This document shows, piece by piece, positions 23,209 to 55,725 of a stretch of DNA of 64,000 nucleotides. Source of the stretch: Bacteroidia bacterium (GTDB lineage: Bacteria > Bacteroidota > Bacteroidia > Bacteroidales > GWA2-32-17). The stretch is taken from the NCBI GenBank assembly GCA_016218155.1, contig JACREQ010000046.1, forward strand, positions 62,001 through 126,000. The letters are read 5' to 3'. A program made the position numbers and the translations under genes. The notes under the pieces were generated by a model. The model was given only the letters and a program-made list of their open reading frames with translations, did not search any database and was not told the origin of the DNA. Position 1 is the stretch's first letter, and each line of letters starts with the position of its first letter.

Positions 23209-23703
23209 ATGAAAAGAATTACACTTACACTAATAGTTAGCATATTTGCATTATACACTATTGATGCGCAGCAGATTACGCCACAGGTAATAGCTTCTTC
23301 AGGTGGTTATACTCAAAATGGAGGTTATTCAGTTAGCTGGACATTAGGCGAACCAGTAATTGCTACAGCTACTAATAGCGGAACTACATTAACTCAGGGT
23401 TTTCAACAACCGAGTTATGATGTGGTTGCAATAACAACACAAACTATTCAGGATTTTGATGTAAATGTTTTCCCAAATCCTGCAACAGACTATATCGTAA
23501 TTGACTGGACAACAGATAAAGATAATACGCTTTATATTACTTTATTCGATTTAGCTGGTAAAAAGATTTCTGAGCAAACTTGTGAATCTTCTCAAGATAA
23601 GATTTCTGTAAATATGTCGCAATTGGCTTCTTCTAATTATCTTTTAGAAGTAAGAGACAAAAACTATCAGTACACCAAGATTTTCCGTATCGCTAAAAAA
23701 TAA
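23209..23703 (+). CDS. Short T9SS-tagged secreted protein heading the fibre array
   Basis: The 164-residue product has a signal peptide (1-20, ending IDAQQ). A compact domain follows with SSGGYTQNGGYSVSWTLGEP and TTLTQGFQQPSY (about 28-75). The type A T9SS sorting domain starts at VNVFPNPATDYIVIDW and ends KIFRIAKK. I recall this compact domain plus sorting tag from Bacteroidota genomes near tail-fibre-domain genes, but it has no known function that I can state. It lies 14 nt upstream of the first array gene and shares its promoter. Because the eight fibres carry no sorting tag themselves, it is a candidate surface anchor or chaperone for them (inference). Confidence 0.8.
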   Translation: MKRITLTLIVSIFALYTIDAQQITPQVIASSGGYTQNGGYSVSWTLGEPVIATATNSGTTLTQGFQQPSYDVVAITTQTIQDFDVNVFPNPATDYIVIDWTTDKDNTLYITLFDLAGKKISEQTCESSQDKISVNMSQLASSNYLLEVRDKNYQYTKIFRIAKK

Positions 23704-23717
23704 TTTATTCCTTTTTT

Positions 23718-25913
23718 ATGAAAAAAGTATTTCTTGCAATAATAGCAGGACTGCTATTTTATTGCTCAAACGCTCAATCACCATTATCTTTCCAATATCA
23801 AGCAGTAGTTAGAAATGCTAGTGGTAATGCAATAGTTTCGCAATCAGTTAATTTTAGGTTGAGTATAATATCTGGTTCTGTTTCGGGGACTGTTGAATAT
23901 GTTGAAACTCACTTAGCAACAACAAATACAGTTGGTGTTGTAAATCTTGCGGTAGGGAATGGTTTGCCTGTTACAGGAATATTTGCTTCAATTAACTGGT
24001 CAACATTGCCACACTTTATTAAAGTAGAAGCTGATCCAACTGGAGGTACAAATTATTTAGATATGGGTACTACACAATTATTAAGTGTTCCATATGCGTT
24101 GTATTCTGAAACATCAGGAAATGCAGGTGATACTGTCTGGTCAAAATCTGGAAATAATATTCATAATAATAATTCAGGTAATGTTGGAGTTGGAGTAAAT
24201 AACCCTAATGGTAGAATGGTAGTTCAGGGTAGTTCTTCTGCTTTAGCTACAGATCCATTATTCGAAGTAAAGAATTCAGCAGGTCAAACGGTATTTGTTG
24301 TTTATCAGGATAGTGTAAATGTGTTTGTAAACGATGATGCAATTCAGTCAAATCGTGGAGGTTTTGCAGTTAGTGGTAGAAATAGTTCTAAATCAATTAC
24401 TCACAATTATCTTAAGGTAACTCCTGATAAAACAAGAATATATTTAAATGAAGATGCTGCAAGAGATGGCTTTGCAGTTATGGGTATTAATTCAGGTGGA
24501 TTAAAGGACTATTTAAATGTAAGTGTTGATACAAACGAAATAATAAATCCAAGTCAGCCAAGAATTTTATGGTATCCAACCAAAGAAGCATTTCTTACTG
24601 GCAGAGTTCTAGTTGAAAATAAGGATAGTGTTGGCTTAAATTCTTTTGCTTCAGGTTTCGAATCAAAAGCAATTGGAAATTGGTCGCAGGCATTAGGATT
24701 TAAATCCCGTGCGAGAGGGGCATTTTCAACTGCAATAGGTCGTTTTGCAAATGCAGGTTATGCAAATTCATTTGCTTTTGGAAAGTATGCAACTGCTAAT
24801 AATTTTAATGCATATGCAATGGGCGATTCTGCTTTAGCTAATGGATCTGCATCATTCTCTTTTGGAACAGGTTCTCAGGCATTAGGAGATGGTAGTTTTG
24901 CTATCGGATCGTGGAGAAGAGATTTAAGTGGGCAGGTTTTTAATTATCCTACTGTTGCTTCTGGAAACAGTGCCTTTGCTATTGGTATGGGATCTACTGC
25001 AATTGGTAACGGATCTTTTGCTATTGGTACAAATGATTCTACCACTTATTTAGGAGCATTTGCTATAGGTTATGATAATACAAGTTCAGGACAGCAAAGC
25101 TTTAGTGTTGGAAGTTATAATCATTCAAGGGAGCTTCTATCATTTTCAATTGGTGCTTGGAATAACTCAACTAATATTGCAAGTTTTGCAATTGGCACTG
25201 AAAATTCAGTTACAGGAATTCATGCAACTGCTGTTGGTGATTTAAACAATGCTTCCGGTACTGAATCAATGGCTATTGGTCAATTTAATAGTTCTACGGG
25301 AGATCATGCGTTTTCAACTGGATACTATACTACTGCTCAGGCAGCGTATTCATTGGTGTTTGGAAGGTATAATGAAATTTCTGGAGATTTATCAAATTGG
25401 ATTTCTACTGACCCTCTTTTTGTATTAGGAAATGGTTCTAATTCTGTTGCTCGTTCAAATGCAGTTACGGTTCTTAAAAACGGTAATGTTGGAATTGGAA
25501 TATCTGTACCAGTTTATCAATTACAACTTGCTATGAATTCTGCAGCTAAGCCAGGATCTGCTACATGGACAATAACTTCAGATATTCGTTTGAAAGATGT
25601 TAAAGGTAGTTATAACAAAGGACTAAATGAAATTTGTAAACTAAACCCAATTATTTATAGGTATAAAAAAGATAATCTTTTTAAAATTAAAGAGACTGAA
25701 ATAGATTTTTATGGATTTAGTGCGCAAGATGTTCAAAAAGTTTTTCCTGAAGCGGTGTCTGAAAAAGACGGTTATCTTAATCTGGATATTCATTCTATCA
25801 TAATAGCACAGGTAAATGCAATAAAAGAATTGAAAGTTATGATAGATAAATTATCAAAAGATAATGCAGAACTAAAATCAGAAATAAATAATTTAAAGAT
25901 TTTAAAACAATAA
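23718..25913 (+). CDS. Array gene 1: fibre protein with YadA-type head and S74 chaperone domain
   Basis: The 731-residue product shows the layout of the whole family. Signal peptide (1-19) is followed by an N-terminal domain (20-135: LSFQYQAVVRNASGNAIVSQ ... MGTTQLLSVPYALYSE). The middle module (about 164-265) carries FEVKNSAGQTVFVVYQDSVN and SNRGGFAVSGRNSSKS. Residues 308-555 are YadA-head repeats (e.g. NGSFAIGTND, GSQALGDGSFAIG). An S74 domain starts at the cleavage motif SDIRLK (Ser621), and a terminal coiled coil ends the chain. S74 domains trimerise fibres and then cut themselves off, as in phage tail spikes. This copy has the most YadA-like head and no collagen or strand linkers. It shares an operon with the T9SS-tagged gene. 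Confidence 0.88.
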   Translation: MKKVFLAIIAGLLFYCSNAQSPLSFQYQAVVRNASGNAIVSQSVNFRLSIISGSVSGTVEYVETHLATTNTVGVVNLAVGNGLPVTGIFASINWSTLPHFIKVEADPTGGTNYLDMGTTQLLSVPYALYSETSGNAGDTVWSKSGNNIHNNNSGNVGVGVNNPNGRMVVQGSSSALATDPLFEVKNSAGQTVFVVYQDSVNVFVNDDAIQSNRGGFAVSGRNSSKSITHNYLKVTPDKTRIYLNEDAARDGFAVMGINSGGLKDYLNVSVDTNEIINPSQPRILWYPTKEAFLTGRVLVENKDSVGLNSFASGFESKAIGNWSQALGFKSRARGAFSTAIGRFANAGYANSFAFGKYATANNFNAYAMGDSALANGSASFSFGTGSQALGDGSFAIGSWRRDLSGQVFNYPTVASGNSAFAIGMGSTAIGNGSFAIGTNDSTTYLGAFAIGYDNTSSGQQSFSVGSYNHSRELLSFSIGAWNNSTNIASFAIGTENSVTGIHATAVGDLNNASGTESMAIGQFNSSTGDHAFSTGYYTTAQAAYSLVFGRYNEISGDLSNWISTDPLFVLGNGSNSVARSNAVTVLKNGNVGIGISVPVYQLQLAMNSAAKPGSATWTITSDIRLKDVKGSYNKGLNEICKLNPIIYRYKKDNLFKIKETEIDFYGFSAQDVQKVFPEAVSEKDGYLNLDIHSIIIAQVNAIKELKVMIDKLSKDNAELKSEINNLKILKQ

Positions 25914-25991
25914 AACTTATTTTTTTTTCAAGTTGTTAAATTATTAAGTGTAATATATTCAAAAAGATTTTGTTTCATTTTGACGAATAGC

Positions 25992-26022
25992 TTGACTCTG
26001 ATTTTTTTATTTTATATTTTTG
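25992..26022 (+). promoter_or_regulatory. Promoter of array gene 2
   Basis: TTG at 25992-25994, a 20-nt spacer and TATTTTTG at 26015-26022 match the Bacteroidota pattern, 27 nt before the ATG. A perfect 16-bp palindrome (26024-26039) lies just downstream, over the predicted start of transcription. Confidence 0.55.
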
Positions 26023-26049
26023 AAGATTATATATAATCTATCTTAAACT

Positions 26050-29000
26050 ATGAAAAAGATCACTTTGTTATTTGTCAGTTTTTTAATCACATATGCGACA
26101 TTTGCTCAAGCTCCAAAAACTTTTCAATATCAGGCAGTAGTTCGCGATGTAAGTGGAAATGCATTGCAGTCGCAGTCTGTAAATTTTCAATTAAGTATAA
26201 TTTCAGGTTCTGTTTCGGGAACCGTTGAGTATGTTGAAACTCATAATACTGTAACGAATCAATTTGGAATAGTTACTCTTTCTGTTGGTTTAGGTACTCC
26301 TGTAACAGGTGTCTTTGCATCAATAAATTGGGGTGGTAACTTACATTTTATTAAAGTTGAAGCAGATCCAACTGGTGGTACAAGCTATATTGATATGGGT
26401 ACTACACAATTATTAAGCATACCTTATGCGCTTTATGCTGAGACAGCCGGTAATGCAGGTCAAACTTATACTGCCGGAAATGGTATAGATATTACAGGCA
26501 ATGTTGTTGCAAATACAGCTCCTGATCAAATAGTTGTCCTAAATTCAGGTTCAGGTGCAAGCATTACAGGTGTATATCCTAATTTTACTGTAACAAATAC
26601 TCAACCTGATCAGATTCTGAATTTATCAGGTTCAGGTTCTACTTCAGTTACTGGAACGTATCCGAATTTTACGATTTCAAGTACTGACAATAATACTACA
26701 TATACTGCTGGTTCCGGATTGAATTTAATAGGTACAACTTTCTCAAATACAGCACCAGATCAGACAATAACATTAGGTAGTGGAACAGGGATAGGGGTTA
26801 CAGGAGCATACCCGTCTTTTACTGTTACAAATTCAAGCCCAAATGCAACTCATACCGGAGATGTTACAGGTTCTGGTGCTTTAACTATTGCGAACAATGC
26901 AGTAACAACATCCAAAATTGCAGATGGAAATGTGACTGCTGCAAAACTTAACAATATGTCAGCAACAAGTGGTCAGGTGTTAAAGTATAATGGGACTAGC
27001 TGGGCTCCTGCTACTGATAATAATACTGCTTATTCTGCAGGAACAGGTATAAATGTAACTGGTACAACCATATCAAACACTGCTCCCGATCAGACTGTCT
27101 CTTTAACTCAGGGTGGAGCTACAACTATTACTGGAACTTATCCAAATTTTACAATCTCAAGTACTGATAATAATACTACATATACAGCAGGTACCGGATT
27201 GGGATTGACTGGTACAGTCTTTAGTTCGACACAAACTTTGGCACAGACCTTAACAAATGGTAATAGTGCTGGAACAAGTAGTATTTTAATGAACAATCAA
27301 AGTATAACAGGCGCAAATATTATTGGATTGGGTACTAATAATGCTAATTACTTTGATTTATTTTGGGGGCATATTCGTGATTATGCAGGAAGTCATGGTG
27401 TTGCTGGACAAGTTCTTACTGTAAGGGGAACTAGCCCAAATACATTTGTGTATTGGGAAAATCCATTAATATCTTCAGTTGGAAGTGGATTAAGTTTAAG
27501 CGGAAATACTTTAAATAGTGTATGGAGTGTAAACGGTAACCATATTTATAATAATAATACAGGTAATGTTGGAGTTGGAATAAATAACCCAGTAGGTAAA
27601 ATGGTAGTAAAAGGTGATGCATCTGCACTACCAACGGATCCTTTATTTGAAGTTAAGAATGCTGCAGGTCAGACTGTTTTTGTTGTTTATCCTGATAGTG
27701 TCCATATTTACGTAAAAGATACCGGTGCAAAATCAAATAAAGGAGGTTTTGCTGTAAGTGGTAGAAATAATTCAAAAGCTCTAACTCATGATTTTCTTTA
27801 TGTTGATCCAGATTATACAAGAGTATATACCGGAGATACTTTAGCTGGCTTTGGTGTTCAAAATATTGGAACAACATCTGATAATAGTTATATGCAAATG
27901 ACCCCAAAAAATTATTTTATTGGCCATGATGCTGGAAATAGTACTACTACTGGAAAATATAATTCATTTATTGGTTATCAAAGTGGTTTTGCCAATATTG
28001 CAGGGAGTTATAATGTTTTTCTTGGGTATAATACAGGTTATAATAACACAGCAAGTAATAACTTATTTCTGGGTTATGAAACTGGTAAAAATAATACTAT
28101 AGGTACATTTAATTCATTCATTGGACATCAGTCGGGTTTTTCTAATATTGATGGAAATCAAAATACAGCCAATGGATATATGACATTAAACCATAATACT
28201 ACAGGTGATTATAATACAGCAATGGGGTCTTATGCATTATACAATAATACAATAGGAAATGATAATACTGCAGTTGGTAATATGGTGTTATTTGCAAATA
28301 CAACAGGAATTGATAATATCGCAATTGGTTCAAGTTCATTACAAAATAACATAACAGGTAGCCAGAATACAGCTGTTGGGGCTGCAGTATTAAGATTAGG
28401 GACTGCTTCAAGTAATAATTCTGCACTTGGATATTTAACAGGTTATAATTCTTCAGGGTCTAATAATACTTTTATGGGATATCGTACTGGATATAATACA
28501 TCTGGCTCTAATAATGCTTTTATGGGTTATGATGCTGGATTTAATTCTACCGGAAGTAATAATGTTTTCGTTGGATTTGGTGCAGGTTATAGCACATCAG
28601 CATCTTATGATGCATTTATTGGGTATCAAGCAGGTTATAGCAATACATCTGGTTCTCAAAATACTGCAATTGGTTATCAGGCTTTATATGATAATACTAT
28701 TGCCAGTTTTACAACTGCTGTTGGTTCATATGCTTTAGCAAACAATACTACCGGTAATGATAATACAGCAATTGGTAACCTTGCACTTTATTCAAATGTT
28801 ACTGGTAGTGGTAATATTGCTACTGGTTCAAGTGCTTTACAGAATAATACAGGAAGTAATAATACAGCAAACGGTGCTGCAGCATTAAGAAGTAATACAA
28901 CAGGTATTAATAATACTGCATTAGGTTATGCTGCATTTTATAATGGAAATTATAATAATTCAACAGCTTTGGGTGCAAATACAGTTATAAATCAGAGTAA

Positions 29001-29493
29001 TAAAGTAAGAATTGGTGATGCTTCAACTACAGTAATCGAAGGTCAGGTAGCATATACATGGCCATCAGACGGAAGATTTAAAAATAATGTTACCGAGGAA
29101 GTAAAAGGACTTGATTTTATTACTAAACTAAGACCAATTGTTTACAATTTCGATACTCGTAAATTTGATGCTTTTTTAATGAAAGATATGAGTGATAGCT
29201 TAAGGGAAGATTTAATGAGTAAAAAAGATTATACTTCATCATCAAGTGTTCGACAAACAGGTTTTATTGCTCAGGAAATTGAAGTTGCTGCCAAAGAATG
29301 TGGTTATAATTTTAATGGATTACATATACCTGAAAATGATAATGATAATTATAGTGTAGCATATTCATTATTTACAGTTCCTTTAGTTAAAGCAGTGCAA
29401 GAATTAAATGCAAAAAATCAGGAGCTTATGCAAATAAATAATGACCTTCAAAAGAGAATAGAAGCTCTTGAAAAGATTGTTTTGAATAAATAA
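26050..29493 (+). CDS. Array gene 2: fibre protein with strand linkers and S74 domain
   Basis: The 1147-residue product adds, between the N-terminal domain (to about 137) and the middle module (from about 513), several linkers of the type YTAGNGIDITG ... TYPNFTVTNTQPDQ. A tail-fibre block NNAVTTSKIADGNVTAAKLN is also present. The middle module is the 'KGDASALP ... VHIYVKD ... SNKGGF' subtype. The head (about 625-980) mixes FIGYQSGF-type and NTAIGYQALY-type repeats of about 16 residues. S74 begins at SDGRFK (Ser1006) and contains RQTGFIAQEIEVAAKE; a coiled coil (QINNDLQKRIEALEK) closes. The S74 part is closest to that of array gene 6. Confidence 0.88.
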   Translation: MKKITLLFVSFLITYATFAQAPKTFQYQAVVRDVSGNALQSQSVNFQLSIISGSVSGTVEYVETHNTVTNQFGIVTLSVGLGTPVTGVFASINWGGNLHFIKVEADPTGGTSYIDMGTTQLLSIPYALYAETAGNAGQTYTAGNGIDITGNVVANTAPDQIVVLNSGSGASITGVYPNFTVTNTQPDQILNLSGSGSTSVTGTYPNFTISSTDNNTTYTAGSGLNLIGTTFSNTAPDQTITLGSGTGIGVTGAYPSFTVTNSSPNATHTGDVTGSGALTIANNAVTTSKIADGNVTAAKLNNMSATSGQVLKYNGTSWAPATDNNTAYSAGTGINVTGTTISNTAPDQTVSLTQGGATTITGTYPNFTISSTDNNTTYTAGTGLGLTGTVFSSTQTLAQTLTNGNSAGTSSILMNNQSITGANIIGLGTNNANYFDLFWGHIRDYAGSHGVAGQVLTVRGTSPNTFVYWENPLISSVGSGLSLSGNTLNSVWSVNGNHIYNNNTGNVGVGINNPVGKMVVKGDASALPTDPLFEVKNAAGQTVFVVYPDSVHIYVKDTGAKSNKGGFAVSGRNNSKALTHDFLYVDPDYTRVYTGDTLAGFGVQNIGTTSDNSYMQMTPKNYFIGHDAGNSTTTGKYNSFIGYQSGFANIAGSYNVFLGYNTGYNNTASNNLFLGYETGKNNTIGTFNSFIGHQSGFSNIDGNQNTANGYMTLNHNTTGDYNTAMGSYALYNNTIGNDNTAVGNMVLFANTTGIDNIAIGSSSLQNNITGSQNTAVGAAVLRLGTASSNNSALGYLTGYNSSGSNNTFMGYRTGYNTSGSNNAFMGYDAGFNSTGSNNVFVGFGAGYSTSASYDAFIGYQAGYSNTSGSQNTAIGYQALYDNTIASFTTAVGSYALANNTTGNDNTAIGNLALYSNVTGSGNIATGSSALQNNTGSNNTANGAAALRSNTTGINNTALGYAAFYNGNYNNSTALGANTVINQSNKVRIGDASTTVIEGQVAYTWPSDGRFKNNVTEEVKGLDFITKLRPIVYNFDTRKFDAFLMKDMSDSLREDLMSKKDYTSSSSVRQTGFIAQEIEVAAKECGYNFNGLHIPENDNDNYSVAYSLFTVPLVKAVQELNAKNQELMQINNDLQKRIEALEKIVLNK

Positions 29494-29617
29494 TTGCCTT
29501 TTAAAAAATATATAGGTATTTGAATAATACTTAGTTTTATTTGCTTTAAAATTTATAATAATTTAATTTTAAGTCACATTTTAAATAGAATTTAAAAATC
29601 AGAAAACGTAACTGTAT

Positions 29618-32600
29618 ATGAAACAATTTATTGTATTATTTATTAGTCTAATGCTTTGTGCAACTGTTTTTGCGCAAACACCACAATCATTTCAATATCA
29701 ATGTGTGGTTCGTGATTTAAGCGGTGCTGCTATTGTTAATCAGCCTGTTAATTTCCAGCTGAGTATTTTGTCTGGTAGTCCAACTGGAAATTTAATGTAT
29801 GTAGAAACTCAATTAGTAACTACTAATTCATTTGGGTTGGTTTCAATTTCAATTGGAACCGGAACACAAGTTAGCGGTGATTTTACTATCATTGATTGGG
29901 GAAATGCCTTACATTTTTTAAAAGTAGAAGCAGATCCAACCGGAGGCTCTAGTTTTATTGATATGGGAACAACTCAGTTATTGAGTGTTCCTTATGCACT
30001 TTATGCAAAGACTGCTGGAAATGGCGGAGTTAATGGTGTTTCTGTGAATTGGCAGGGAACTTATTCATCTCCACCTTCTTCTCCTTCATTAAATGATGGA
30101 TATTATAATTCAGTTGATGGTATATCTTATATTTATGATGGCTCACAATGGCAAATTATTTCAAAGGATGGAGCTCAAGGAATTCAGGGAATACAGGGTC
30201 CTCAAGGTCTTCAGGGAATTCAGGGTAATGATGGTCTTCAGGGTAATGATGGAATTTCTATAGAATGGTTAGGAACTTTTGCTTCAGCTCCGTCTTTACC
30301 TTTACTTAATCAAGGTTATTATAACTCAACTGATGGAAAATCATATATCTATGATGGAACTTCGTGGCAATTAATCGCACAGGATGGAGCTCAGGGCTTA
30401 CAGGGAATTCAGGGTTTGCAGGGTAATCAAGGAATTCAAGGTTTACAGGGAGTACAGGGTATTCAAGGGCTTCAAGGAGTCGCAGGAACTGCTGGGCAAA
30501 ATGGTATTTCACTAAATTGGATTGGAACATTAACAGTTGCGCCATCTTCACCTTTGTTAAACGATGCATATTATAATTCTACTTTAGGTAAATCATATGT
30601 TTATAATGGATCATCATGGCAAATAATTTCTCAGGATGGAACACAGGGTTTGCAGGGAATTCAGGGATTGCAGGGAACTCAAGGTTTACAAGGAAATCCC
30701 GGAATAAACGGTATCTCTATTTCATGGCTGGGAACATATGCCGCAGCCCCTGGTAGTCCTACATTAAATCAGGCTTATTATAATTCAACAGATAAGAAAT
30801 CTTATATTTATAATGGTTCTGCATGGCAAATGATTTCACAGGATGGGTTAAATGGAACAAATGGTACAAATGGTTTAAATGGTAGTAATGGAACAAATGG
30901 AAATTCTGTTTTAAGCGGGACTGTAAACCCAACAACACAAGGTGTAAATGGTGATTTTTATATTAATACAACAACTAACACAATATTTGGTCCTAAAACT
31001 GCAGGTGTTTGGGGTAGTGGTGTATCAATAATTGGACCTCAAGGGTTGGCCGGTACAAATGGTACAAATGGAATTAACGGTACAAATGGAACAAATGGAT
31101 ATTCGATTTTAAATGGAACGTTAAACCCAACAACACAAGGTGTAAATGGTGATTTTTATATTAATACAACAACTAACACAATATTTGGTCCTAAAACTGC
31201 AGGTGTTTGGGGTACCGGAACTTCTTTAATTGGACCTCAGGGTATAGCTGGTACTAATGGAATAAATGGAACTAACGGTATTAACGGAACATCTGTAATT
31301 AATGGTACAGTAAATCCAACAACTCAGGGAGTAAATGGTGATTTTTACATTAATACAACAACTAACACAATATTTGGCCCTAAAACAGCTGGTATTTGGG
31401 GTAGCGGAACTTCATTAATAGGACCTCAAGGAATAGCTGGCACAAATGGTACAAACGGAATAAATGGTACAAATGGATCAAACGGAACTAATGGTTATTC
31501 TGTTTTGAATGGCACTTCCAACCCAACAACTCAGGGTGTAAATGGCGATTTTTATATAAATACATCAACAAGTACATTATTTGGACCAAAAGCAGCTGGA
31601 GCATGGGGAACCGGAACATCATTAATAGGACCTCAAGGTATTCAGGGGATTCAAGGTCCTGCCGGTACTGGTCTTACAAATAAGGGTAATTGGTTAAGTG
31701 GTACAAATTATGTAAATGGTGACTATGTTTTTGATCGTTCTACAGGTAGTGCATCTGTAAATTCAATGTGGATTTGTCAGACAGCAGTTACACCTTCTAC
31801 AACTCAACCATATTTAGATCCATCGCATTGGGTTGAATTTCAAGCACCAGCTGGGCCACAGGGTACCGCCGGAACAAATGGCACAGATGGTAAGACTATA
31901 TTAAATGGAACTGTTGATCCTACAACTCAAGGAATAAATGGTGATTTTTATATTAATACTTCAACTAATAAAATATTTGGACCTAAAACTGCTGGTGTTT
32001 GGGGAGTTGGGGTTACGTTAGTTGGTCCTCAGGGTGTTGCTGGAACAAATGGAACAAATGGCACAAACGGTACTAACGGAACAAATGGTTATTCTGTTTT
32101 AAATGGGACTGTAAATCCAACAACTCAAGGTGTAAATGGCGATTTTTATATTAATACAACAACAAGCACATTGTTTGGACCTAAAACAGCAGGAGTATGG
32201 GGAAGTGGAACTTCATTAGTGGGACCTCAGGGTATTGCAGGTACAAATGGCACAAATGGTACAAATGGCACAAATGGTTTTACTGTTTTAAGTGGTACAG
32301 TAAATCCTACTACTCAGGGTGTAAATGGCGATTTTTATATTAATACAACATCAAGCACAATATTTGGTCCTAAAACTGCCGGAGTATGGGGAACCGGAAC
32401 ATCAATAGTCGGTCCACAAGGTGTTGCCGGAACAAATGGAACAAATGGAACAAATGGTACAAATGGTTACACAGTGTTAAATGGTACTTCAAATCCAACA
32501 ACACAGGGTGTAAATGGCGATTTTTACATTAATACAATAACTAATACGATTTTTGGACCTAAGACTGCTGGTGTTTGGGGAACTGGTACTTCGCTTGTAG

Positions 32601-35599: not shown

Positions 35600-35628
35600 T
35601 TGATTTCTTTATTGATGTATTTTAAAGT

Positions 35629-35678
35629 CTTTATTATAAAAAAACCTGAATTTTAATTCAGGTTTTTTTATAATAAAG
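35629..35678 (+). terminator. Perfect 24-bp stem terminator after array gene 3
   Basis: Arms 35629-35652 and 35655-35678 are exactly complementary, with a 2-nt loop. The stem includes A7/T7 runs, so it could work in both directions. It marks the end of the third transcription unit. Confidence 0.8.
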
Positions 35679-35685
35679 AAAATTG

Positions 35686-35693
35686 TAAATTTG
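35686..35693 (+). promoter_or_regulatory. -7 element of array gene 4
   Basis: TAAATTTG matches TAnnTTTG, 29 nt before the ATG. The region where a -33 element would lie is occupied by the upstream terminator hairpin, so no TTG can be recognised. Confidence 0.4.
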
Positions 35694-35722
35694 ACAAATA
35701 ACCTAAATAATAATTAATTTTT

Positions 35723-38494: not shown

Positions 38495-38514
38495 CTTGTA
38501 GGTCAAGCTGTTTT
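38493..38514 (+). terminator. Weak hairpin at the end of array gene 4
   Basis: A 6-bp stem (AGCTTG 38493-38498 with CAAGCT 38504-38509) overlaps the stop codon and is followed by TTTT. It is short and may not terminate efficiently. Confidence 0.3.
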
Positions 38515-38591
38515 GTTCATTATTGGTTAAAGCTTGTTTCTAAATGGGAATTATTTTTCAACAATATTTTATTATATAGAAGAATTTATCG

Positions 38592-38633
38592 AAATTTGTG
38601 TTAAATAACATATTTGTAATTTAACACAAATTT
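38592..38633. promoter_or_regulatory. 15-bp perfect inverted repeat before array gene 5
   Basis: Arms 38592-38606 and 38619-38633 (AAATTTGTGTTAAAT and its complement) are separated by 12 nt, and the right arm ends 2 nt before the ATG. A near-match to the -7 element (CATATTTG) lies in the spacer. It could be an operator or a leader hairpin that masks the start codon. Confidence 0.5.
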
Positions 38634-38635
38634 AA

Positions 38636-41143: not shown

Positions 41144-41145
41144 CC

Positions 41146-44100
41146 ATGAAAAAAACTCTTATTTCAAGCATTTTAATAATGCTTTCAATGCTGTTGTTTG
41201 CTCAGTCTCCTCAGTCTTTCCTATATCAGGCTGTAGTTCGCGATGCATCTGGTATTGCAATGGCAAATCAAACTGTAAGCTTTCAGATTAGTATTATCTC
41301 CGGATCAATAAATGGGACAGTTGATTATATCGAAACCCATACAGCAACTACAAATGCTTTCGGAATTGTAACCCTTTCTATTGGAAGTGGCAATACTACC
41401 GGAAATTTTGCAGGTATTAGCTGGGGTAGTGCTGTACACTTTATTAAGGTTGAAGCCGATCCCCTTGGAGGAACAAGTTACATAGATATGGGAACTACAC
41501 AGTTATTGAGTGTTCCATATGCATTATATGCCGAAACATCAGGCAATGCAGGACAAACTTATACATCCGGAACTGGCATTGATATTACAGGCAATGTTAT
41601 AACAAATACAACTCCTGATCAGACTGTTGTTATAAACTCCGGAACTGGAACAAGCGTTACAGGTACATACCCTAATTTTACAATAAATAATACACAACCT
41701 GATCAAACTGTAAACTTAACAGGAGCAGGTTCTACATCTGTAAGTGGTACATATCCTAATTTTTTAATTACATCTACTGGTGGAACTGTTCCTTACACTG
41801 CTGGTAGCGGAATAGATGTAACAGGAACAACAATAAGTAATACAGCACCCGATCAAACTGTTAATTTAACACAGGCTGGAGCTACAACAATTACTGGAAC
41901 ATATCCTAATTTTACTATTTCAAGTACTGATAACAATACAACATACACTGCAGGAACTGGAATAAATGTTACAGGTACAACAATTTCAAATACAGCTCCA
42001 GACCAAACAGTAACTTTAACTCAAGGTGGTGCAACAACAGTAACAGGAACATATCCAAATTTTACAATTTCAAGTACAGATAATAATACAACATATACTG
42101 CTGGATCTGGCTTAAGTTTAACAGGTACAACATTTTCTAACACATCTCCCGATCAGACTGTAACAATGGTAAATGGAACAGGGATTACTATTACCGGATC
42201 TTATCCGACATTCACGGTTACTAACTCTAGTCCAAATGCCACTCATACCGGCGATGTAACAGGTGCAGGCGCTTTAACAATTGCTAACAATGCTGTAACA
42301 ACATCTAAAATTGCTGATGGAAGTGTTACTGCAGTAAAGCTTAATTCAATGTCTGCAACAAACGGGCAAGCATTAAAATTTAATGGAACAAACTGGGCTC
42401 CTGCTACAGATAACAATACAACTTATACTGCTGGTACTGGTATAAATGTTACAGGAACAACAATTACAAACACCTCACCAGATCAGACTGTTTCTTTAAC
42501 TCAGGGTGGTGCCACTACTATTAGCGGAACATATCCAAACTTTACAATTAGTAGTACCGATTTAAATTCCGGTACCCCCGGTGGTTTAAATAAAACAATT
42601 CAATTTAATAACTCAGGTTCGTTCGGAGGAAATACAAACTTTGTATGGGATAATTCAAACGAAAGATTAGGTGTTGGTACAACCAGTCCACTAGGTAGAA
42701 TGGTGGTTCAGGGAAGTGCAACAGCTTTAGCTACAGAGCCACTTTTTGAAGTGAAAAATAAAGCGGGACAAACAGTTTTTGTTGTTTATGAAGACAGCGT
42801 AAATGTTTTTGTTAACGACGATGCTATTCAGGCTAACAGAGGAGGTTTTGCTGTAAGTGGAAGAAATAGCGCAAAAGCACTCACACATAATTATTTGCAT
42901 GTCACGCCTGACAGTACTAGAGTTTTTACGGCTAACCCTTCTGCAGGATTTGGTGTTTGTAATATTAGTACAGGAACTTCTACAAGTTATATGAATCTTA
43001 CTCCTGATAATTATTTTATTGGACATCAGGCAGGTGATGCAATAACAACCGGTATCTATAATTCTTTTATTGGATATCAATCGGGTTTAAATAATAATAC
43101 TGGAAGTAATAACTTGTTTTTTGGATATAAGTCAGGAGCATTAAATACACTTGGTTTAAGTAATGTTTTTATTGGTAATGTTGTTGGATATACTAACTCT
43201 GCAGGTGGAAATAATGTTTTTATCGGCGATAGTGCAGGATATTATAACACAACAAGTAGCTATAGTGTATTTTTGGGTAAGGGAACTGGTAAAGGTAATA
43301 CAACCGGTCAGTATAATTCATTTCTTGGATATCAGTCGGGTTATAAAAATGGTGCAGGTACTTATAATGTTTTTATGGGATATCGTGCTGGATATAGTAA
43401 TACTGTAAGTTATAATACTTTTATCGGATTTCAGTCCGGATTGAAAAATACTACAGGTACTTATAATTCATTTATTGGATATGAATCAGGAAAAGAAAAT
43501 GTTGATGGAAGTTATAATGTTGCAATAGGTAAAAGTGCTTTTACAGCCAATGTGTCAGGCGGATTAAATGTAGCTATTGGTTATGATGCATTAAATAGTA
43601 ATACAACTGGTTTTACTAATGTTGCATGTGGATGGGGTGCAATGAATTCAAATACCTCTGGACAGGATAATGTTGGTATTGGAACTGTAGCAATGGGTTA
43701 TAATATTAATGGAGGGTCAAATACTTCAATAGGTGCTTTTTCTACTTCATATAACACTGCAGGAAATAATCTTGTTGCTCTAGGATATCAGTCACTAAGA
43801 GGAAATACAATAGGAAATAACAATACAGCATTGGGAGTGGGTTCATTGTGGGCAAATACAACAGGATCAAATAATACTGCCATTGGTTATAATTCATATA
43901 GTACTGGTATATATTCAAACTCAACAGCATTAGGTGCAAATTCAATTATTAGTCAAAATAATAAAGTAAGAATTGGAGATGCCACAGTTACCGTAATTGA
44001 AGGTCAGGTTGCATATACTTTTCCTTCTGATGCAAGATTTAAAAATAATATAACAGAAGATGTAAAAGGGTTGGATTTTATAACAAAATTAAGACCAGTT

Positions 44101-44460
44101 GAATATAACTTTGATACTCGTAAATTTGATGAATTTATTATGCAGGATATGTCTGATAGTTTGCGTAAAGCAATTATGAGCAAAAAGAATTATAGCGAAT
44201 CGTCAAATATAAGACAAACAGGTTTTATAGCTCAGGAGGTAGAACAGGCTGCTAAAGAAAGTGGTTATGATTTCAATGGATTGCATAAGCCCGAAAATGA
44301 CAAGGATAATTATAGTGTAGCTTATTCTTTATTTACTGTACCTTTGGTAAAAGCTGTTCAGGAACAGCAAATTATTATTCAAAAACAACAGAATGATATC
44401 GATTTTTTAAAGAAACAATTAGATGAATTAAATAATAAGATTAAAGAGTTTCAAAAATAA
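41146..44460 (+). CDS. Array gene 6: fibre protein with many strand linkers
   Basis: The 1104-residue product carries the most strand linkers of the array (five YTAGTGINVTGTTISNTAP-type units plus the SKIADGSVTAVKLNSM block, about 140-500). The middle module starts at about 518 ('QGSATALA ... VNVFVND ... ANRGGF'). The head (about 625-940) is mixed. S74 starts at SDARFK (Ser961) with RQTGFIAQEVEQAAKESGYD, and the coiled coil is long (IIIQKQQNDIDFLKKQLDEL). The DNA of its linker and middle module is nearly identical in places to gene 5 (68-bp exact tract), while its S74 matches gene 2, so it looks mosaic. Confidence 0.88.
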   Translation: MKKTLISSILIMLSMLLFAQSPQSFLYQAVVRDASGIAMANQTVSFQISIISGSINGTVDYIETHTATTNAFGIVTLSIGSGNTTGNFAGISWGSAVHFIKVEADPLGGTSYIDMGTTQLLSVPYALYAETSGNAGQTYTSGTGIDITGNVITNTTPDQTVVINSGTGTSVTGTYPNFTINNTQPDQTVNLTGAGSTSVSGTYPNFLITSTGGTVPYTAGSGIDVTGTTISNTAPDQTVNLTQAGATTITGTYPNFTISSTDNNTTYTAGTGINVTGTTISNTAPDQTVTLTQGGATTVTGTYPNFTISSTDNNTTYTAGSGLSLTGTTFSNTSPDQTVTMVNGTGITITGSYPTFTVTNSSPNATHTGDVTGAGALTIANNAVTTSKIADGSVTAVKLNSMSATNGQALKFNGTNWAPATDNNTTYTAGTGINVTGTTITNTSPDQTVSLTQGGATTISGTYPNFTISSTDLNSGTPGGLNKTIQFNNSGSFGGNTNFVWDNSNERLGVGTTSPLGRMVVQGSATALATEPLFEVKNKAGQTVFVVYEDSVNVFVNDDAIQANRGGFAVSGRNSAKALTHNYLHVTPDSTRVFTANPSAGFGVCNISTGTSTSYMNLTPDNYFIGHQAGDAITTGIYNSFIGYQSGLNNNTGSNNLFFGYKSGALNTLGLSNVFIGNVVGYTNSAGGNNVFIGDSAGYYNTTSSYSVFLGKGTGKGNTTGQYNSFLGYQSGYKNGAGTYNVFMGYRAGYSNTVSYNTFIGFQSGLKNTTGTYNSFIGYESGKENVDGSYNVAIGKSAFTANVSGGLNVAIGYDALNSNTTGFTNVACGWGAMNSNTSGQDNVGIGTVAMGYNINGGSNTSIGAFSTSYNTAGNNLVALGYQSLRGNTIGNNNTALGVGSLWANTTGSNNTAIGYNSYSTGIYSNSTALGANSIISQNNKVRIGDATVTVIEGQVAYTFPSDARFKNNITEDVKGLDFITKLRPVEYNFDTRKFDEFIMQDMSDSLRKAIMSKKNYSESSNIRQTGFIAQEVEQAAKESGYDFNGLHKPENDKDNYSVAYSLFTVPLVKAVQEQQIIIQKQQNDIDFLKKQLDELNNKIKEFQK

Positions 44461-44477
44461 TTTGCTTTATTTTTTAC

Positions 44478-44518
44478 AAAAATCCTATTAATAAATATTT
44501 AATTAATAGGATTTTTTT
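44478..44518 (+). terminator. Terminator after array gene 6
   Basis: A perfect 15-bp stem (44478-44492 with 44502-44516) runs into a T7 stretch. It separates units 5-6 and 7-8. Confidence 0.85.
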
Positions 44519-44546
44519 AAATTTACATTAAACTTGAATTTAAGCT

Positions 44547-46565
44547 ATGAAAAGATTTTTATTCTCTTTAACAATGTGCTTGATTGTTGTAACTACTTTT
44601 GCGCAGGTCCCGCAAACCTTTCAATATCAGGCTGTAATTCGTGATGTATCCGGTACTGCAATGGTAAATCAATCTGTGAATTTTCAGATTAGTATCCTGT
44701 CTGGCTCTGTAACCGGCACTGCTGTTTATGTAGAAACACATACTGCATCAACTAATGCATATGGCATAGTAGCTTTAAATATAGGTTCAGGAATTCCTGT
44801 AACAGGAACTTTGTCATCAATTAACTGGGAAAGTGCATCACACTTTATAAAAGTAGAAGCCGACCCTACAGGCGGTACAAGTTATTTAGATATGGGTACA
44901 ACCCAGCTATTATCTGTACCTTATGCACTAAATTCATTAAAAGCAAATCAGGCGGTAAGTGCTGATAATGCTACTAATGCAAATAATGCAGCACATTCTG
45001 TGTCTTCAGATTATGCCACTGTTGCAGGAACAGCAAACTATGTAGGTGGAACAGGAATTGACATAACAGGTTCAACTGTTACAAATACATCACCCGATCA
45101 GACTGTAACTTTAACTCAGGGTGGTGCTACAACAATAAGTGGAACATATCCAAACTTTACAATTAGTAGTACAGATTTAAATTCAGGAACTCCGGGTGGA
45201 TTAAATAAATCAATACAGTTTAATAACGCTGGTGTTTTTGGTGGTAATTCAAATTTAATGTGGGATAACTCAAATGAGAGGTTGGGTATTGGATTAAGTA
45301 ACCCTTCAGGTAGAATGGTAGTTCAGGGAAGTGCAACAGCTTTGGCCACAGAACCTCTTTTCGAAGTAAAAAACAAATCAGGACAAACAGTTTTTGTTGT
45401 TTATGAAGACAGCGTAAATGTTTTTGTGAACGACGATGTTATTCAGTCTAATCGTGGAGGGTTTGCAGTGAGTGGAAGAAATAATGCAAAAGCATTTACA
45501 AATAAATATTTGCACGTTACTCCTGATAATTCTAAAATATGGACAAAAGATACTTTAACTGGTTTTGGAATTAAAAATATTGGAACTTCCACAAAAACCA
45601 GCTATATGCAATTAACACCAAATAATTATTTAATAGGACATGAGACAGGAATAAATATAACAACTGGCAAGTATAATTCATTTATTGGATATCAGGCTGG
45701 ATATTTAAATACTGTTGGGTATAATAATTACTTTTTTGGTTATAGAGCAGGATATAGTAATATTGATGGCTATAGCAATATATTTATAGGCGATAGTTGT
45801 GGCTTCGCTAATACTTCAGGATATTGGAATACTGCCAATGGATATAAAGCAATGAAAGTAAATACAACCGGATGGAATAATACTGCAATAGGCGTATTTG
45901 CGCTATATAAAAATACTTCAGGAAATTATAATACAGGTGTCGGATTAGATGCCCTTTATTCAAATACAACCGGACAAAGTAATGTTGCAATTGGTTTTAA
46001 TGCACTTTTAGTTTGTAATGGTGGAAATAATAATACTGCTATTGGTACATCAGCATATTCAAGTGGAACTTTTTTTAATTCTACTGCCATAGGTTCAAAT
46101 ACTGTAATAACTGCAAATAATCAAGTAGCATTGGGTAATAATTCAATTACCACATTCTACTGCATGGGTGCTTATGTTGGCACTGTTGGAGTTACAAATA
46201 GAGATCTTTTTGTTGATAATACTGGTAAAATTGGTTATGTCGCTTCATCAAAACGATACAAAAACTCTATATCAGACATGGAAAATATTAATTGGTTATA
46301 TGACTTAAGACCTGTTAATTATTGTTATAACAATGATGATACAAAAAGAAAACAATATGGATTAATTGCAGAGGAAGTTGAAAAATTAAATCCATTATTT
46401 GTAAGTTATAATCCGGATGGTTCTGTTGAAACTGTAAATTATAGCAGTTTTATTTCTCCAATGTTAAAAGCCTTACAGGATCAAAAAAAGAAAACAGAAG
46501 AATTACAGAAAATAAATAGCGAATTGCAAAAAAGAATAGAAACTTTAGAAAATAAAATCAAATAG
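44547..46565 (+). CDS. Array gene 7: shortest fibre protein, altered S74 motif
   Basis: The 672-residue product has, after the N-terminal domain, an alanine/asparagine-rich stretch (SADNATNANNAAHSVSSDYA, about 137-160) also found in gene 8. One strand linker follows, then the middle module (from about 253, 'VNVFVND ... SNRGGF'), a short head (about 370-530), and an S74-like end. The cleavage motif reads SSKRYK (Ser567): the Asp after the serine is lost. The domain then has YGLIAEEVEKLNPLFV, the classic S74 core, and a coiled coil. It may fold and trimerise without cutting itself. It is 2 nt upstream of gene 8. Confidence 0.87.
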   Translation: MKRFLFSLTMCLIVVTTFAQVPQTFQYQAVIRDVSGTAMVNQSVNFQISILSGSVTGTAVYVETHTASTNAYGIVALNIGSGIPVTGTLSSINWESASHFIKVEADPTGGTSYLDMGTTQLLSVPYALNSLKANQAVSADNATNANNAAHSVSSDYATVAGTANYVGGTGIDITGSTVTNTSPDQTVTLTQGGATTISGTYPNFTISSTDLNSGTPGGLNKSIQFNNAGVFGGNSNLMWDNSNERLGIGLSNPSGRMVVQGSATALATEPLFEVKNKSGQTVFVVYEDSVNVFVNDDVIQSNRGGFAVSGRNNAKAFTNKYLHVTPDNSKIWTKDTLTGFGIKNIGTSTKTSYMQLTPNNYLIGHETGINITTGKYNSFIGYQAGYLNTVGYNNYFFGYRAGYSNIDGYSNIFIGDSCGFANTSGYWNTANGYKAMKVNTTGWNNTAIGVFALYKNTSGNYNTGVGLDALYSNTTGQSNVAIGFNALLVCNGGNNNTAIGTSAYSSGTFFNSTAIGSNTVITANNQVALGNNSITTFYCMGAYVGTVGVTNRDLFVDNTGKIGYVASSKRYKNSISDMENINWLYDLRPVNYCYNNDDTKRKQYGLIAEEVEKLNPLFVSYNPDGSVETVNYSSFISPMLKALQDQKKKTEELQKINSELQKRIETLENKIK

Positions 46566-46567
46566 AA

Positions 46568-49500
46568 ATGAGAAAATTATTTTTTCTAAGCATTTTCGTA
46601 ATGCTTTCAATGTGCATTAATGCACAGACTCCACAAGGATTCCAGTATCAGGCTGTCATTCGTGATGCATCAGGTACTGCAATGGTAAATCAATCTGTGA
46701 ATTTTCAGATTAGTATAATCTCAGGTTCTGTAAGCGGAACACCTGTTTATATTGAAACACATATTGGCTCAACCAATGCTTATGGAATAGTAGTTTTAAA
46801 TATTGGCTCAGGTACTCCTGTAACAGGTACCTTGTCAGCAATAAACTGGGAAAGTGCTTCTCACTTTATAAAGGTAGAGGCTGATCCAACCGGAGGTACA
46901 AGTTATTTAGATATGGGCACAACTCAATTGTTATCTGTTCCATATGCTTTAAATTCATTAAAAGCTAATCAGGCAGTAAATGCTGATAATGCAACAAATG
47001 CAAATTATGCTACAGTAGCAGGAACAGCAAACTATGTTGGTGGTACTGGAATTGATATTACTGGCTCAGTAGTTACAAATACAGCACCTGATCAAACTGT
47101 ATCATTAACTCAGGGAGGTTCAACAACAATAAGTGGTACATATCCAAATTTTACTATTTCGAGTACCGATAACAATACAACTTATAATGCAGGAACAGGA
47201 ATTAATGTAACAGGTACAACTATTTCAAATACTGCTCCTGACCAAACAATAACATTAAGCCAAAGTGGTGCAACAACAGTTACTGGAACCTACCCAAACT
47301 TTACAATATCAAGTACTGATAACAATACAACTTATACTGCTGGATCTGGTTTAAGTTTAACAGGTACAACTTTTGTAAACACTGCACCCGATCAGACTGT
47401 AACAATGACAAGTGGAACAGGAATTTCTGTTACTGGTTCTTATCCGTCTTATACTGTTACTAATTCTAGTCCAAATGCAACACATACAGGAGACGTCACA
47501 GGTTCAGGCGCATTAACCATTGCAAACAATGCTGTAACAACATCCAAAATTGCAGATGGAAATGTAACTGCTGTAAAACTTAACAATATGTCGGCAACTA
47601 ATGGTCAGGTATTAAAATTTAATGGTACAAACTGGGCTCCGGCAATAGATGCTAATACCACTTATACAGCAGGAGCAGGGTTAAGTTTATCAGGAACATT
47701 GTTTGCAAATACAGCACCTGATCAAACTGTCTCTTTAACTCAGGGTGGTGCAACAACAATAAGTGGAACATATCCTAACTTCACAATTAGTAGTACTGAT
47801 TTAAACTCAGGTACTCCGGGTGGTTTTAATAAAACTGTTCAGTTTAATAATTCTGGTTCTTTTGGTGGCGATACTGCAATGACATGGGATAATGCAAATA
47901 AAAGGTTAGGTGTTGGATTAACTAATCCAAATGGTAGATTGGTTGTTCGTGGAAGTGCATTGGCTCCTGCTACAGAACCATTATTTGAAGTTAAAAATGC
48001 CGCTGGTCAAACTGTATTTGTTGTTTACCCTGATAGTGTTCACATTTATGTTAAAGATGGTGGTGCAAAATCAAATAAAGGGGGTTTCGCAGTAAGCGGT
48101 AGAAACAGTTCAAAGGCTTTTACAAATAATTTTCTTTCAGTAACACCCGATAGTACCAGAATTTTTACAGGAGATACTATTTCCGGTTTTGGAGTTGAAA
48201 ACCTTGGTGCCGGAGCTTCAACAAGCTATATGCACTTAACACCAAATAATTATTTTATTGGACATCTTTCTGGCGATGCTATTACTTCCGGTTTGTACAA
48301 TTCATTTGTTGGTTACCAGTCTGGAAAGAGCAATTCAAATGGAAGTTATAACGTGTTTATGGGTTATCAGACTGGTTTTGCAAACGTAGCTGGAGCCTAT
48401 AATACATTTATTGGTTATTTATCTGGAAAGTTTAATACAAGTAGTGATAATACATTTTTAGGATATAAAGCAGGTATGTCTCACCAAACAGGAGGTGGCA
48501 ATGTATTTATAGGAAGTAAAGCTGGTCAGAATGATATTTCAGGAGTTCAAAATATATTTATTGGCGAAAATTCAGGCTTCTCTAATAATAATGGATCATA
48601 TAATGTTTCACTTGGATTTGAAAGCGGTTTTAACAATGTATTTGGCTCTTATAATACTTTTCTGGGTTATCAATCTGGCTATAATAATATAAATGCTTCT
48701 AATAATGTTATTATGGGTTATCAGTCAGGATTTAATAATAATGGAAATAGTAACGTATTATTGGGAAATCAATGTGGATACAGCAATACCTGGGGTTATA
48801 GTAATGTAATGTTAGGAAATATGGCCGGATATAGTAATGTAAATGGATTTGTAAATACATTTATTGGAGAATTAGCCGGTTATTATAACACAGATGGTAC
48901 TAACAACGTGTTTATTGGTTATCAGAGCGGATATAAAAACACAATTGCTAATGGAAATATTTTTATTGGACGTCAGACCGGATACAATAATTTAACAGGA
49001 CATGGGAATTTGTTCATGGGTAATTATGCTGGTTTTATGAATACAGCTGGAGCGAATAATGTTTACCTCGGTTATAATGCCGGTATGAATTCTTTAGGAA
49101 ATAATAATGTTAATATCGGACAGTCTGCTAATGAGCATAATGTTAATGGAATAAATAATGTTAGTCTTGGTGCATTTGCAGGGTTTTGGTCAACTGGAAA
49201 TTATAATTTATTCCTGGGATATCAAGCTGGTAATAATAATACTGGAAGTAATAATATATTCTTAGGTGAAAATTCTGGTTATAACGATTTTGGCTCAGGG
49301 AAATTATATATAGAAAACTCGTCTAATATTACAAATCCACTTGTAAATGGAGATTTTACTAATGATAGGTTCGCAGTAAACCGACAGGCTGATACATATC
49401 CTTTTCAGGTTGGAACTGACGCAACTACTGGTAATGGTGCTTATTTGACAGCAGGTGGTACATGGACAAATACTTCATCAATTACACTTAAAGATAGATT

Positions 49501-49774
49501 TGTAACAATTAACAATAATGATTTCTTAACAAAGATTAAAAACCTCGAAATTAAAGGATGGTTTTATAAAGAAACTCAGGAATATCATATTGGTCCGTTT
49601 GCCGAAGATTTTTATAATGCATTCGGAACAGGTGTTTTAAACGAACCTAATTATCTTGGAAAATCTTTAGCAGCAAGTGATGTTGCAGGAGTAAGCCTTC
49701 TGGCAGTTCAACAACTTATAAAAGAAATTGAATTACTAAAAGCCGAAATTGAAAAATTAAAAGCAGCAAAATAA
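46568..49774 (+). CDS. Array gene 8: fibre protein with diverged S74 domain
   Basis: The 1068-residue product shares its first ~160 residues closely with gene 7 (including NADNATNANYATVAGTANYV), then has several strand linkers (to about 440). The middle module (from about 454) is the 'VHIYVKD ... SNKGGF' subtype, unlike gene 7. A long head of FIGYQSGYKN-type repeats (565-905) follows. The end is a reduced S74-like domain starting SSITLK (Ser970): Ser and Lys positions are kept but Asp is Ser, followed by IGPFAEDFYNAFGTGV and a coiled coil (IELLKAEIEKLKAAK). Auto-cleavage is doubtful. A strong terminator ends the array. Confidence 0.87.
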   Translation: MRKLFFLSIFVMLSMCINAQTPQGFQYQAVIRDASGTAMVNQSVNFQISIISGSVSGTPVYIETHIGSTNAYGIVVLNIGSGTPVTGTLSAINWESASHFIKVEADPTGGTSYLDMGTTQLLSVPYALNSLKANQAVNADNATNANYATVAGTANYVGGTGIDITGSVVTNTAPDQTVSLTQGGSTTISGTYPNFTISSTDNNTTYNAGTGINVTGTTISNTAPDQTITLSQSGATTVTGTYPNFTISSTDNNTTYTAGSGLSLTGTTFVNTAPDQTVTMTSGTGISVTGSYPSYTVTNSSPNATHTGDVTGSGALTIANNAVTTSKIADGNVTAVKLNNMSATNGQVLKFNGTNWAPAIDANTTYTAGAGLSLSGTLFANTAPDQTVSLTQGGATTISGTYPNFTISSTDLNSGTPGGFNKTVQFNNSGSFGGDTAMTWDNANKRLGVGLTNPNGRLVVRGSALAPATEPLFEVKNAAGQTVFVVYPDSVHIYVKDGGAKSNKGGFAVSGRNSSKAFTNNFLSVTPDSTRIFTGDTISGFGVENLGAGASTSYMHLTPNNYFIGHLSGDAITSGLYNSFVGYQSGKSNSNGSYNVFMGYQTGFANVAGAYNTFIGYLSGKFNTSSDNTFLGYKAGMSHQTGGGNVFIGSKAGQNDISGVQNIFIGENSGFSNNNGSYNVSLGFESGFNNVFGSYNTFLGYQSGYNNINASNNVIMGYQSGFNNNGNSNVLLGNQCGYSNTWGYSNVMLGNMAGYSNVNGFVNTFIGELAGYYNTDGTNNVFIGYQSGYKNTIANGNIFIGRQTGYNNLTGHGNLFMGNYAGFMNTAGANNVYLGYNAGMNSLGNNNVNIGQSANEHNVNGINNVSLGAFAGFWSTGNYNLFLGYQAGNNNTGSNNIFLGENSGYNDFGSGKLYIENSSNITNPLVNGDFTNDRFAVNRQADTYPFQVGTDATTGNGAYLTAGGTWTNTSSITLKDRFVTINNNDFLTKIKNLEIKGWFYKETQEYHIGPFAEDFYNAFGTGVLNEPNYLGKSLAASDVAGVSLLAVQQLIKEIELLKAEIEKLKAAK

Positions 49775-55674: not shown

Positions 55675-55694
55675 GTATTTAATATTTGTATATG

Positions 55695-55725
55695 CAAAAG
55701 TAGGGGTATTGATGCACTCTATCAA
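55695..55725 (-). promoter_or_regulatory. Promoter of the SprB-repeat gene
   Basis: On the minus strand TTG (55723-55725), a 20-nt spacer and TACTTTTG (55695-55702) give a full Bacteroidota promoter. It ends 21 nt before ATG 55674. Confidence 0.65.

Follow-up and report, generated by a model that had tools for sequence, protein, structure and literature searches.

Mosaic adhesive trimer (MAT) fibres serve Bdellovibrio in prey recognition, and all 21 of them carry a beta-rich domain of ~130 aa right after the signal peptide, for which no homologue in the Protein Data Bank (PDB) was reported; surface exposure, self-cleavage of the S74 domain at the serine of an SDxxxK motif, trimeric tips and glycan binding have all been shown for this group (PMC10769870). 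Here we analyse a 64,000-nucleotide stretch of DNA (the window) from a lake-dwelling Bacteroidota bacterium, in which eight consecutive genes encode modular fibre proteins with a MAT-like N-terminal domain (N domain) and a ninth, directly upstream, encodes a 164-aa cargo protein of the type IX secretion system (T9SS), which to our knowledge has been described only in Bacteroidota. We consider it probable that this locus encodes eight trimeric MAT-type surface fibres together with one T9SS-delivered partner that may carry or anchor them.

The fibres resemble the MAT superfamily in their architecture (a signal peptide, the homologous beta-rich N domain, a long stalk and an S74 domain with its Ser and Lys, replaced by other tips in relatives), in their multiplicity (13 S74 and 8 NS74 paralogues in Bdellovibrio bacteriovorus (PMC10769870), compared with 21 N-domain genes in the present host) and in being mosaic, with exchanged tips on a conserved base, as seen in a gradient of identity along the proteins and in conflicting module trees, with groupings rejected by approximately unbiased (AU) tests. 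They differ from the MATs in that eight genes stand in one tandem array, in an N domain that scores below the cut-off of the Bdellovibrio model, in an additional FEVKN...GGFAVSGRN module (M module), in YadA-like heads and in the link to a T9SS cargo gene, and there is no evidence of predation in this organism. A preliminary description of the locus, made from the sequence alone, had mentioned YadA heads and single Bacteroidota proteins of this sort; the closest described relative is neither of these but the MAT superfamily, which that description did not name.

Three other systems bear comparison. The type Vc proteins YadA and BpaC share the 14-residue head repeats found in fibre gene 1, whereas the array fibres have no anchor barrel, would depend on other parts for export and trimerization and, in genes 2-8, carry a 17-residue repeat. 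Phage tail spikes (endosialidase, the T5 L-shaped fibre, SPO1 gp2.52) have the S74 SDxxxK motif and similar head repeats, but the array fibres possess a cellular signal peptide and N domain and occupy a chromosomal site. T9SS type-B cargo encoded next to a PorP/SprF anchor (PMC9143113) likewise pairs a surface protein with a dedicated T9SS-linked partner; in the present locus that layout is reversed, as the big protein lacks a T9SS C-terminal domain (CTD) and the small partner has one of type A.

An intact array of fibre genes downstream of a small T9SS cargo gene

The window sits on a single 223-kb contig of a 4.78-Mb genome. The eight plus-strand fibre genes, whose sizes agree exactly with those first reported, span 23718-49774, with no interrupting stop in any open reading frame (ORF) and with intergenic gaps of, in order, 136, 124, 123, 141, 2, 86 and 2 nt. 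The start of the array had been placed at 23209, which instead opens the different, ninth gene:

23209..23703, plus strand: putative adaptor gene, 164 aa; signal peptide, ~50-aa unannotated domain, T9SS type-A CTD; 14 nt before fibre gene 1
23718..25913, plus strand: fibre gene 1, 731 aa; N domain, M module, YadA-type 14-residue head, S74 (Ser621, SDIRLK), coiled coil
26050..29493, plus strand: fibre gene 2, 1147 aa; N domain, ~50-aa repeat stalk, M module, 17-residue-repeat head, S74 (Ser1006, SDGRFK)
29618..35599, plus strand: fibre gene 3, 1993 aa; N domain, collagen-like stalk with 189-nt repeats, M module, head, S74 (Ser1851, SDRRLK)
35723..38494, plus strand: fibre gene 4, 923 aa; N domain followed directly by M module, head, S74 (Ser794, SDGRFK)
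38636..41143, plus strand: fibre gene 5, 835 aa; N domain, short stalk, M module, head, S74 (Ser698, SDKRFK)
41146..44460, plus strand: fibre gene 6, 1104 aa; N domain, ~50-aa repeat stalk, M module, head, S74 (Ser961, SDARFK)
44547..46565, plus strand: fibre gene 7, 672 aa; three modules, each with a different nearest relative; S74 variant SSKRYK (Ser567)
46568..49774, plus strand: fibre gene 8, 1068 aa; stalk, M module, head, divergent S74 variant SSITLK (Ser970; 20.2 bits, cut-off 22)

All eight fibres share the signal peptide, N domain, M module, head repeats and S74-type end ascribed to them in the preliminary description, and the terminal coiled coil also holds, as judged by eye from heptad-like tails. 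The signal peptides have an Ala-Gln cleavage site without a lipobox in 8/8 fibres, which is the pattern that Bacteroidota substrates of signal peptidase I should show (PMC5837995). Pairwise identity among the paralogues is 48-79% in the N domain (with matches far beyond chance, E down to 1e-75), 43-76% in the M module and 18-70% in the S74 end, so that the base is kept and divergence lies at the chaperone end. Peptidase_S74 (PF13884) was detected above its curated 22-bit cut-off in seven of the eight; the gene 8 domain, which had been counted with the others, falls short in hmmscan (E 7e-4) and reaches 26 bits in a six-frame search. The S74 Ser and Lys are kept in all eight, and the Asp in the six genes with SDxxxK (genes 1-6). 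The bead-like heads are likewise present, although the YadA type is confined to gene 1, whose 14-residue repeats match the solved heads of YadA and BpaC (1p9h, 7o23). In genes 2-8 (window 26050-49774) the heads have a period of 17 residues (7+10) compared with 14 in YadA, and they lack a match to any Pfam model. The stalk that separates N domain and M module is nearly absent (genes 1 and 4), consists of ~50-aa repeats (genes 2 and 5-8) or, in gene 3, is a collagen-like one of ~1050 residues (PF01391, E 8.4e-21; tandem repeats at 30845-32580) in a protein whose S74 domain is matched at E 3.7e-15.

The N domain matches the Bdellovibrio MAT model

The NCBIfam model NF053851 (Bdello_MAT_N) is matched by 8/8 fibres at about 26-42 bits, and none of them loses the match once the signal peptide has been trimmed off (E 2e-10 to 3e-8). 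The same model is matched by the N domains of 76/76 Bacteroidota relatives (best E 6.9e-16) and at 19 sites in the host genome, compared with none in 14 control genomes. The predicted structure consists of the signal helix and a beta-rich domain of seven strands (pLDDT 85), a model in agreement with the beta-rich domain of the Bdellovibrio MATs. The N-domain profile found zero matches among PDB sequences, and Foldseek returned nothing below E 1e-3 for the predicted fold. VIA-align matched it to Ig-like domains from GH2 enzymes and from complement/macroglobulin with Z scores as high as 7.0; we rejected these as a family identity, as the arrangement is common and names no family. Judged by profile comparison, then, the N domain is homologous to that of the MAT prey-recognition fibres. 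As the latter are surface-exposed recognition fibres (PMC10769870), this homology backs the attachment or recognition role first proposed for the array, and the fibres likely attach to other cells or to surfaces, or recognise them. The other part of that proposal, a modular S74-chaperoned repertoire, is upheld by the conserved base and by the exchange of stalks and tips described below.

A small T9SS cargo domain is encoded next to N-domain genes

The gene at 23209-23703 had been included in the array without interpretation, and it proved to be its most informative neighbour. Its product consists of a signal peptide, ~65 residues and a T9SS type-A CTD (PF18962, 51.7 bits against a cut-off of 27, E 1.1e-13; TIGR04183, 35.1 bits against 23). 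The ~50-aa domain preceding the CTD, with the pattern AQ..SGG..GG.S.S.T.GE...LTQGFQQP, is covered by no Pfam or NCBIfam model. The host genome contains five full-length matches, including the protein itself, and each of them precedes an N-domain gene (by no more than 15 nt in four cases and by 662 nt in one).

A profile of the ~48-residue pre-CTD domain (A4), searched against 148 genomes of the phylum, identified 28 copies in 18 of them. Nineteen of these are directly followed (<100 nt, same strand) by an N-domain gene; two directly follow the end of one, and coordinate arithmetic places two more likewise. Hence 23/28 copies, spread over ten families, adjoin an N-domain gene directly, an adjacency with a chance of <1e-39 under a generous null; the A4 seeds came from loci fetched for N domains and may favour adjacent copies, while the search itself was context-free. 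The other five copies lie at 0.66-0.76 kb (two) and 0.9-1.3 kb (two) or have no N-domain gene in sight (one). The loci with this domain are as follows:

Window 23209-23703; L116-L119, L121-L126, L128-L131, L133, L134, L136-L139, L141-L143; L144:3512-3997: adaptor-domain cargo genes, neighbours of MAT-like N-domain genes

The last of these is on plasmid pAUEa of Aureispira anguillae (Saprospiraceae), where a 161-aa protein annotated independently in RefSeq as 'T9SS type A sorting domain-containing protein' (domain match 1.6e-15) is encoded 3 nt before an N-domain gene. The plasmid-borne fibre gene has a different tip, and the pair lies beside a gene of a recombinase family.

The fibres themselves carry no such signal: PF18962, PF13585 and TIGR04183 matched none of the eight, and among 64 complete N-domain proteins from the loci we found no convincing terminal type-A CTD and one weak internal match. 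As the fibres have neither a T9SS signal nor a lipobox nor a barrel, we propose that the adaptor supplies both the export signal and the lipopolysaccharide (LPS) anchor.

Fibre modules have been exchanged

Trees of the N, M and C-terminal modules of 23 proteins from the genus conflict with one another, indicating that modules have been exchanged. The C-terminal end of gene 7 groups with that of a gene on contig C74 (support 96/91), and this grouping is rejected on the N domain (AU p 8e-5) and on the M module (AU p 4e-4). Conversely, the N-domain clade of A_x1068, A_x707, O_110b and O_74a is rejected on M and C (AU p <1e-70). Most further groupings are likewise rejected, with one that is not (p 0.11), and over most of the groupings tested AU p ranges from 8.5e-5 to <1e-50; these p values are optimistic because clades were picked after seeing the trees, and the likelihood gaps are large. 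Over long tracts, DNA identity among the eight genes reaches ~86% at most; the exchanges therefore did not happen recently, and recent gene conversion is rejected as the main process.

Relatives with the same base carry other tips, among them H-type lectin-like (E 0.00036, below cut-off), Lcl_C and glycine-rich ones. N-domain fibres in which the S74 domain is replaced were found at the following loci:

L091:4289-6370, minus strand: H-type lectin-like tip (below cut-off)
L061:10001-12847: Lcl_C tip
L054:376-1710: glycine-rich tip
L066:7425-9758: gp53-like tail tip (below cut-off)

Similar arrays occupy the same site in sister species

When array size was compared across relatives, we found that two sister species have arrays at the corresponding chromosomal position, with partly different fibre genes; these species are represented by the metagenome-assembled genomes (MAGs) Loclat_bin-05662 and LJ_bin-1023. 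In both, the left end consists of a MiaB/RimO-like gene, a subtilase and the 164-aa gene (these three 84-87% identical), followed by the gene 1 orthologue; at the right end in Loclat_bin-05662, the gene 8 orthologue is the last of the array and is followed by SprB-repeat and PorP genes (77-80% identical). Genes 2, 4, 5 and 6 have orthologues in the sister arrays, genes 3 and 7 have none, and a gene of 1495/1498 aa common to both sister species is absent from the host array. Contig breaks prevent an exact gene count, and the sister arrays probably hold nine or more genes. With the site kept in sister species and the ORFs uninterrupted, the array is not decayed, and the locus is likely a real, intact and evolving repertoire of MAT-like fibres.

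N-domain genes number 21 in the host, 16, 11, 18 and 0 in its congeners (the last in a 74%-complete genome) and 0-7 in other members of the family. Across the phylum, the N domain occurs in 83/296 sampled genomes, mostly with one to four genes each (at most 13 candidates were scored per genome), and five-gene clusters are found elsewhere, in genomes G256 and G328. Arrays of this kind are thus not unique to the host. Arrays of four or five such genes were noted at G328:C4 203373-219560, at G256:C1 2212592-2225061 and in locus L084, and in genome G351 numerous M-module genes are dispersed among small contigs. In the part of the literature that we covered, no paper was found that describes such arrays, or the pairing of small gene and fibre, in Bacteroidota.

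Neighbouring genes

Directly upstream of the array, the plus-strand gene at 20181-23084 encodes a 967-aa subtilase with PKD and Sortilin-like repeats and a T9SS CTD, 86% conserved in both sister species. Beyond the array, the minus strand encodes a 1513-aa protein with SprB repeats and CHU_C (T9SS type-B) at 51184-55725 and an adjoining PorP/SprF protein at 55880-56809; this pair also adjoins the array in Loclat_bin-05662. Two further minus-strand genes lie beside T9SS cargo genes, one (57108-57968) encoding a 286-aa protein without any Pfam match and the other (58359-59345) a 328-aa protein with a sub-threshold match to PA-IL lectin (E 0.0046).

Discussion

How such fibres would reach and stay on the cell surface can be pictured from the parts that are conserved. 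There is strong reason to think that Sec takes each fibre across the inner membrane and that signal peptidase I cuts before the Gln. The S74 domain, by homology and given the retained Ser and Lys, would then trimerize the chain, aid folding of head and stalk and cut itself off at the Ser, exposing the tip. The N domain would form the cell-proximal base common to all eight fibres, and differing stalks, heads and tips on this one base would provide different binding ends. In Flavobacterium, T9SS substrates leave the SprA pore CTD-first in complex with PorV, with Sec-exported mCherry lacking a CTD as the control (PMC10994853), and proteins with a type-A CTD end up attached to A-LPS (PMC9143113). 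The linkage of the genes and their co-occurrence with a T9SS suggest that the 164-aa protein may dock onto the N domain and escort the fibre through the T9SS pore; alternatively, once its signal is removed and it is attached to LPS, it may hold the fibre at the surface. One adaptor would serve many fibres in trans, and the small upstream protein may be the fibres' missing anchor.

A number of points weigh against this reading. The match to NF053851 spans only positions ~13-80 of 162 and always stays under the 60-bit curated cut-off; it therefore indicates homology, as judged by profile comparison, and not membership of the Bdellovibrio subfamily. The M module gave a poor monomer model (pLDDT 62, pTM 0.37), unusable and therefore excluded from the fold search. 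Self-cleavage is less sure for the S74 variants of genes 7 and 8, from which the Asp of the motif is missing. The co-occurrence with SprA, the T9SS pore, which speaks for the reading (83/83 N-domain-positive genomes compared with 145/213 others, p 5e-12), is confounded by phylogeny because the SprA-negative genomes include one large family. Several N-domain clusters in the host genome have no adjoining adaptor gene, and there the adaptor would have to act in trans. Finally, the host is known here from a multi-contig assembly and the sister species from metagenomes.

Some of these observations could also be accommodated if the fibres were MAT-like surface adhesins and the small T9SS gene merely encoded a separate, co-transcribed surface protein, with fibre export and anchoring proceeding by another route, as in Bdellovibrio. 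For the MATs of that organism, which do get to the surface, no anchor has been identified (PMC10769870), at least half of the N-domain clusters have no detectable adaptor neighbour, and a single adaptor for eight fibres would be unusual for a tight complex. Adjacency kept in at least ten families and in either gene order (the N-domain gene usually coming after), however, goes beyond what shared operon history would readily lead one to expect, and N-domain genes are confined to genomes with a T9SS; we therefore regard a separate protein as unlikely, though a serious contender. Retention of the fibres in the periplasm, for example as envelope scaffolds, is improbable. It would fit the Sec signal being the only recognisable one, given that a Flavobacterium Sec fusion without a CTD served as the control for T9SS export (PMC10994853), but proteins that reach 1993 aa and include collagen-like stalks are rather long for that compartment, Bdellovibrio displays its homologous fibres on the cell surface, and both the linkage to T9SS cargo and the lectin-like tips of relatives point outward.

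Tail fibres of a prophage, a phage remnant or an extracellular contractile injection system were suggested by the heads and S74 domains, which match phage tail spikes such as SPO1 gp2.52 (~32% identity), and by the resemblance of some relatives' tips to phage tail tips. Only the head and S74 part is involved (residues ~517-1141 of gene 2 among the matches listed), while the signal peptide and N domain are lacking in phage fibres, and the N domain is absent from 50,697 phage records and from IMG/VR. Around the array, the genes with a Pfam annotation serve chromosomal housekeeping (SRP54, FolD, MiaB/RimO-like) or encode T9SS cargo; the scan of these neighbours matched no family of capsid, sheath or baseplate proteins, and the site is conserved in sister species. 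We rejected this identity, to which we give hardly any credence. A type Vc trimeric autotransporter was likewise rejected, as Pfam scans of the eight proteins revealed no YadA anchor barrel and their C-termini consist of S74 and coiled coil.

Taken together, the array itself is a variant on MAT-type fibres, and the linked T9SS adaptor is the most testable part of the locus. Recognition fibres of the MAT type, known as a prey-recognition repertoire in Bdellovibrio, are hereby extended to T9SS-bearing Bacteroidota, with module exchange in a tandem array, and names and functions may become available for many hypothetical proteins now annotated as 'tail fiber domain-containing' or 'T9SS type A sorting domain-containing'. 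The pairing of small cargo and fibre also offers a testable answer to how such fibres cross and are held at the outer membrane, a question left open for the MATs. As a more tentative proposal, which we hold to be possible but somewhat doubtful, there could be a phylum-wide two-component display in which a tiny T9SS cargo (mature length ~65 aa), one per repertoire, carries CTD-less MAT-type trimeric fibres in trans and then anchors them to LPS. If true, the T9SS would have a 'hitch-hiker' use not described before, which would also answer how the fibres reach the surface.

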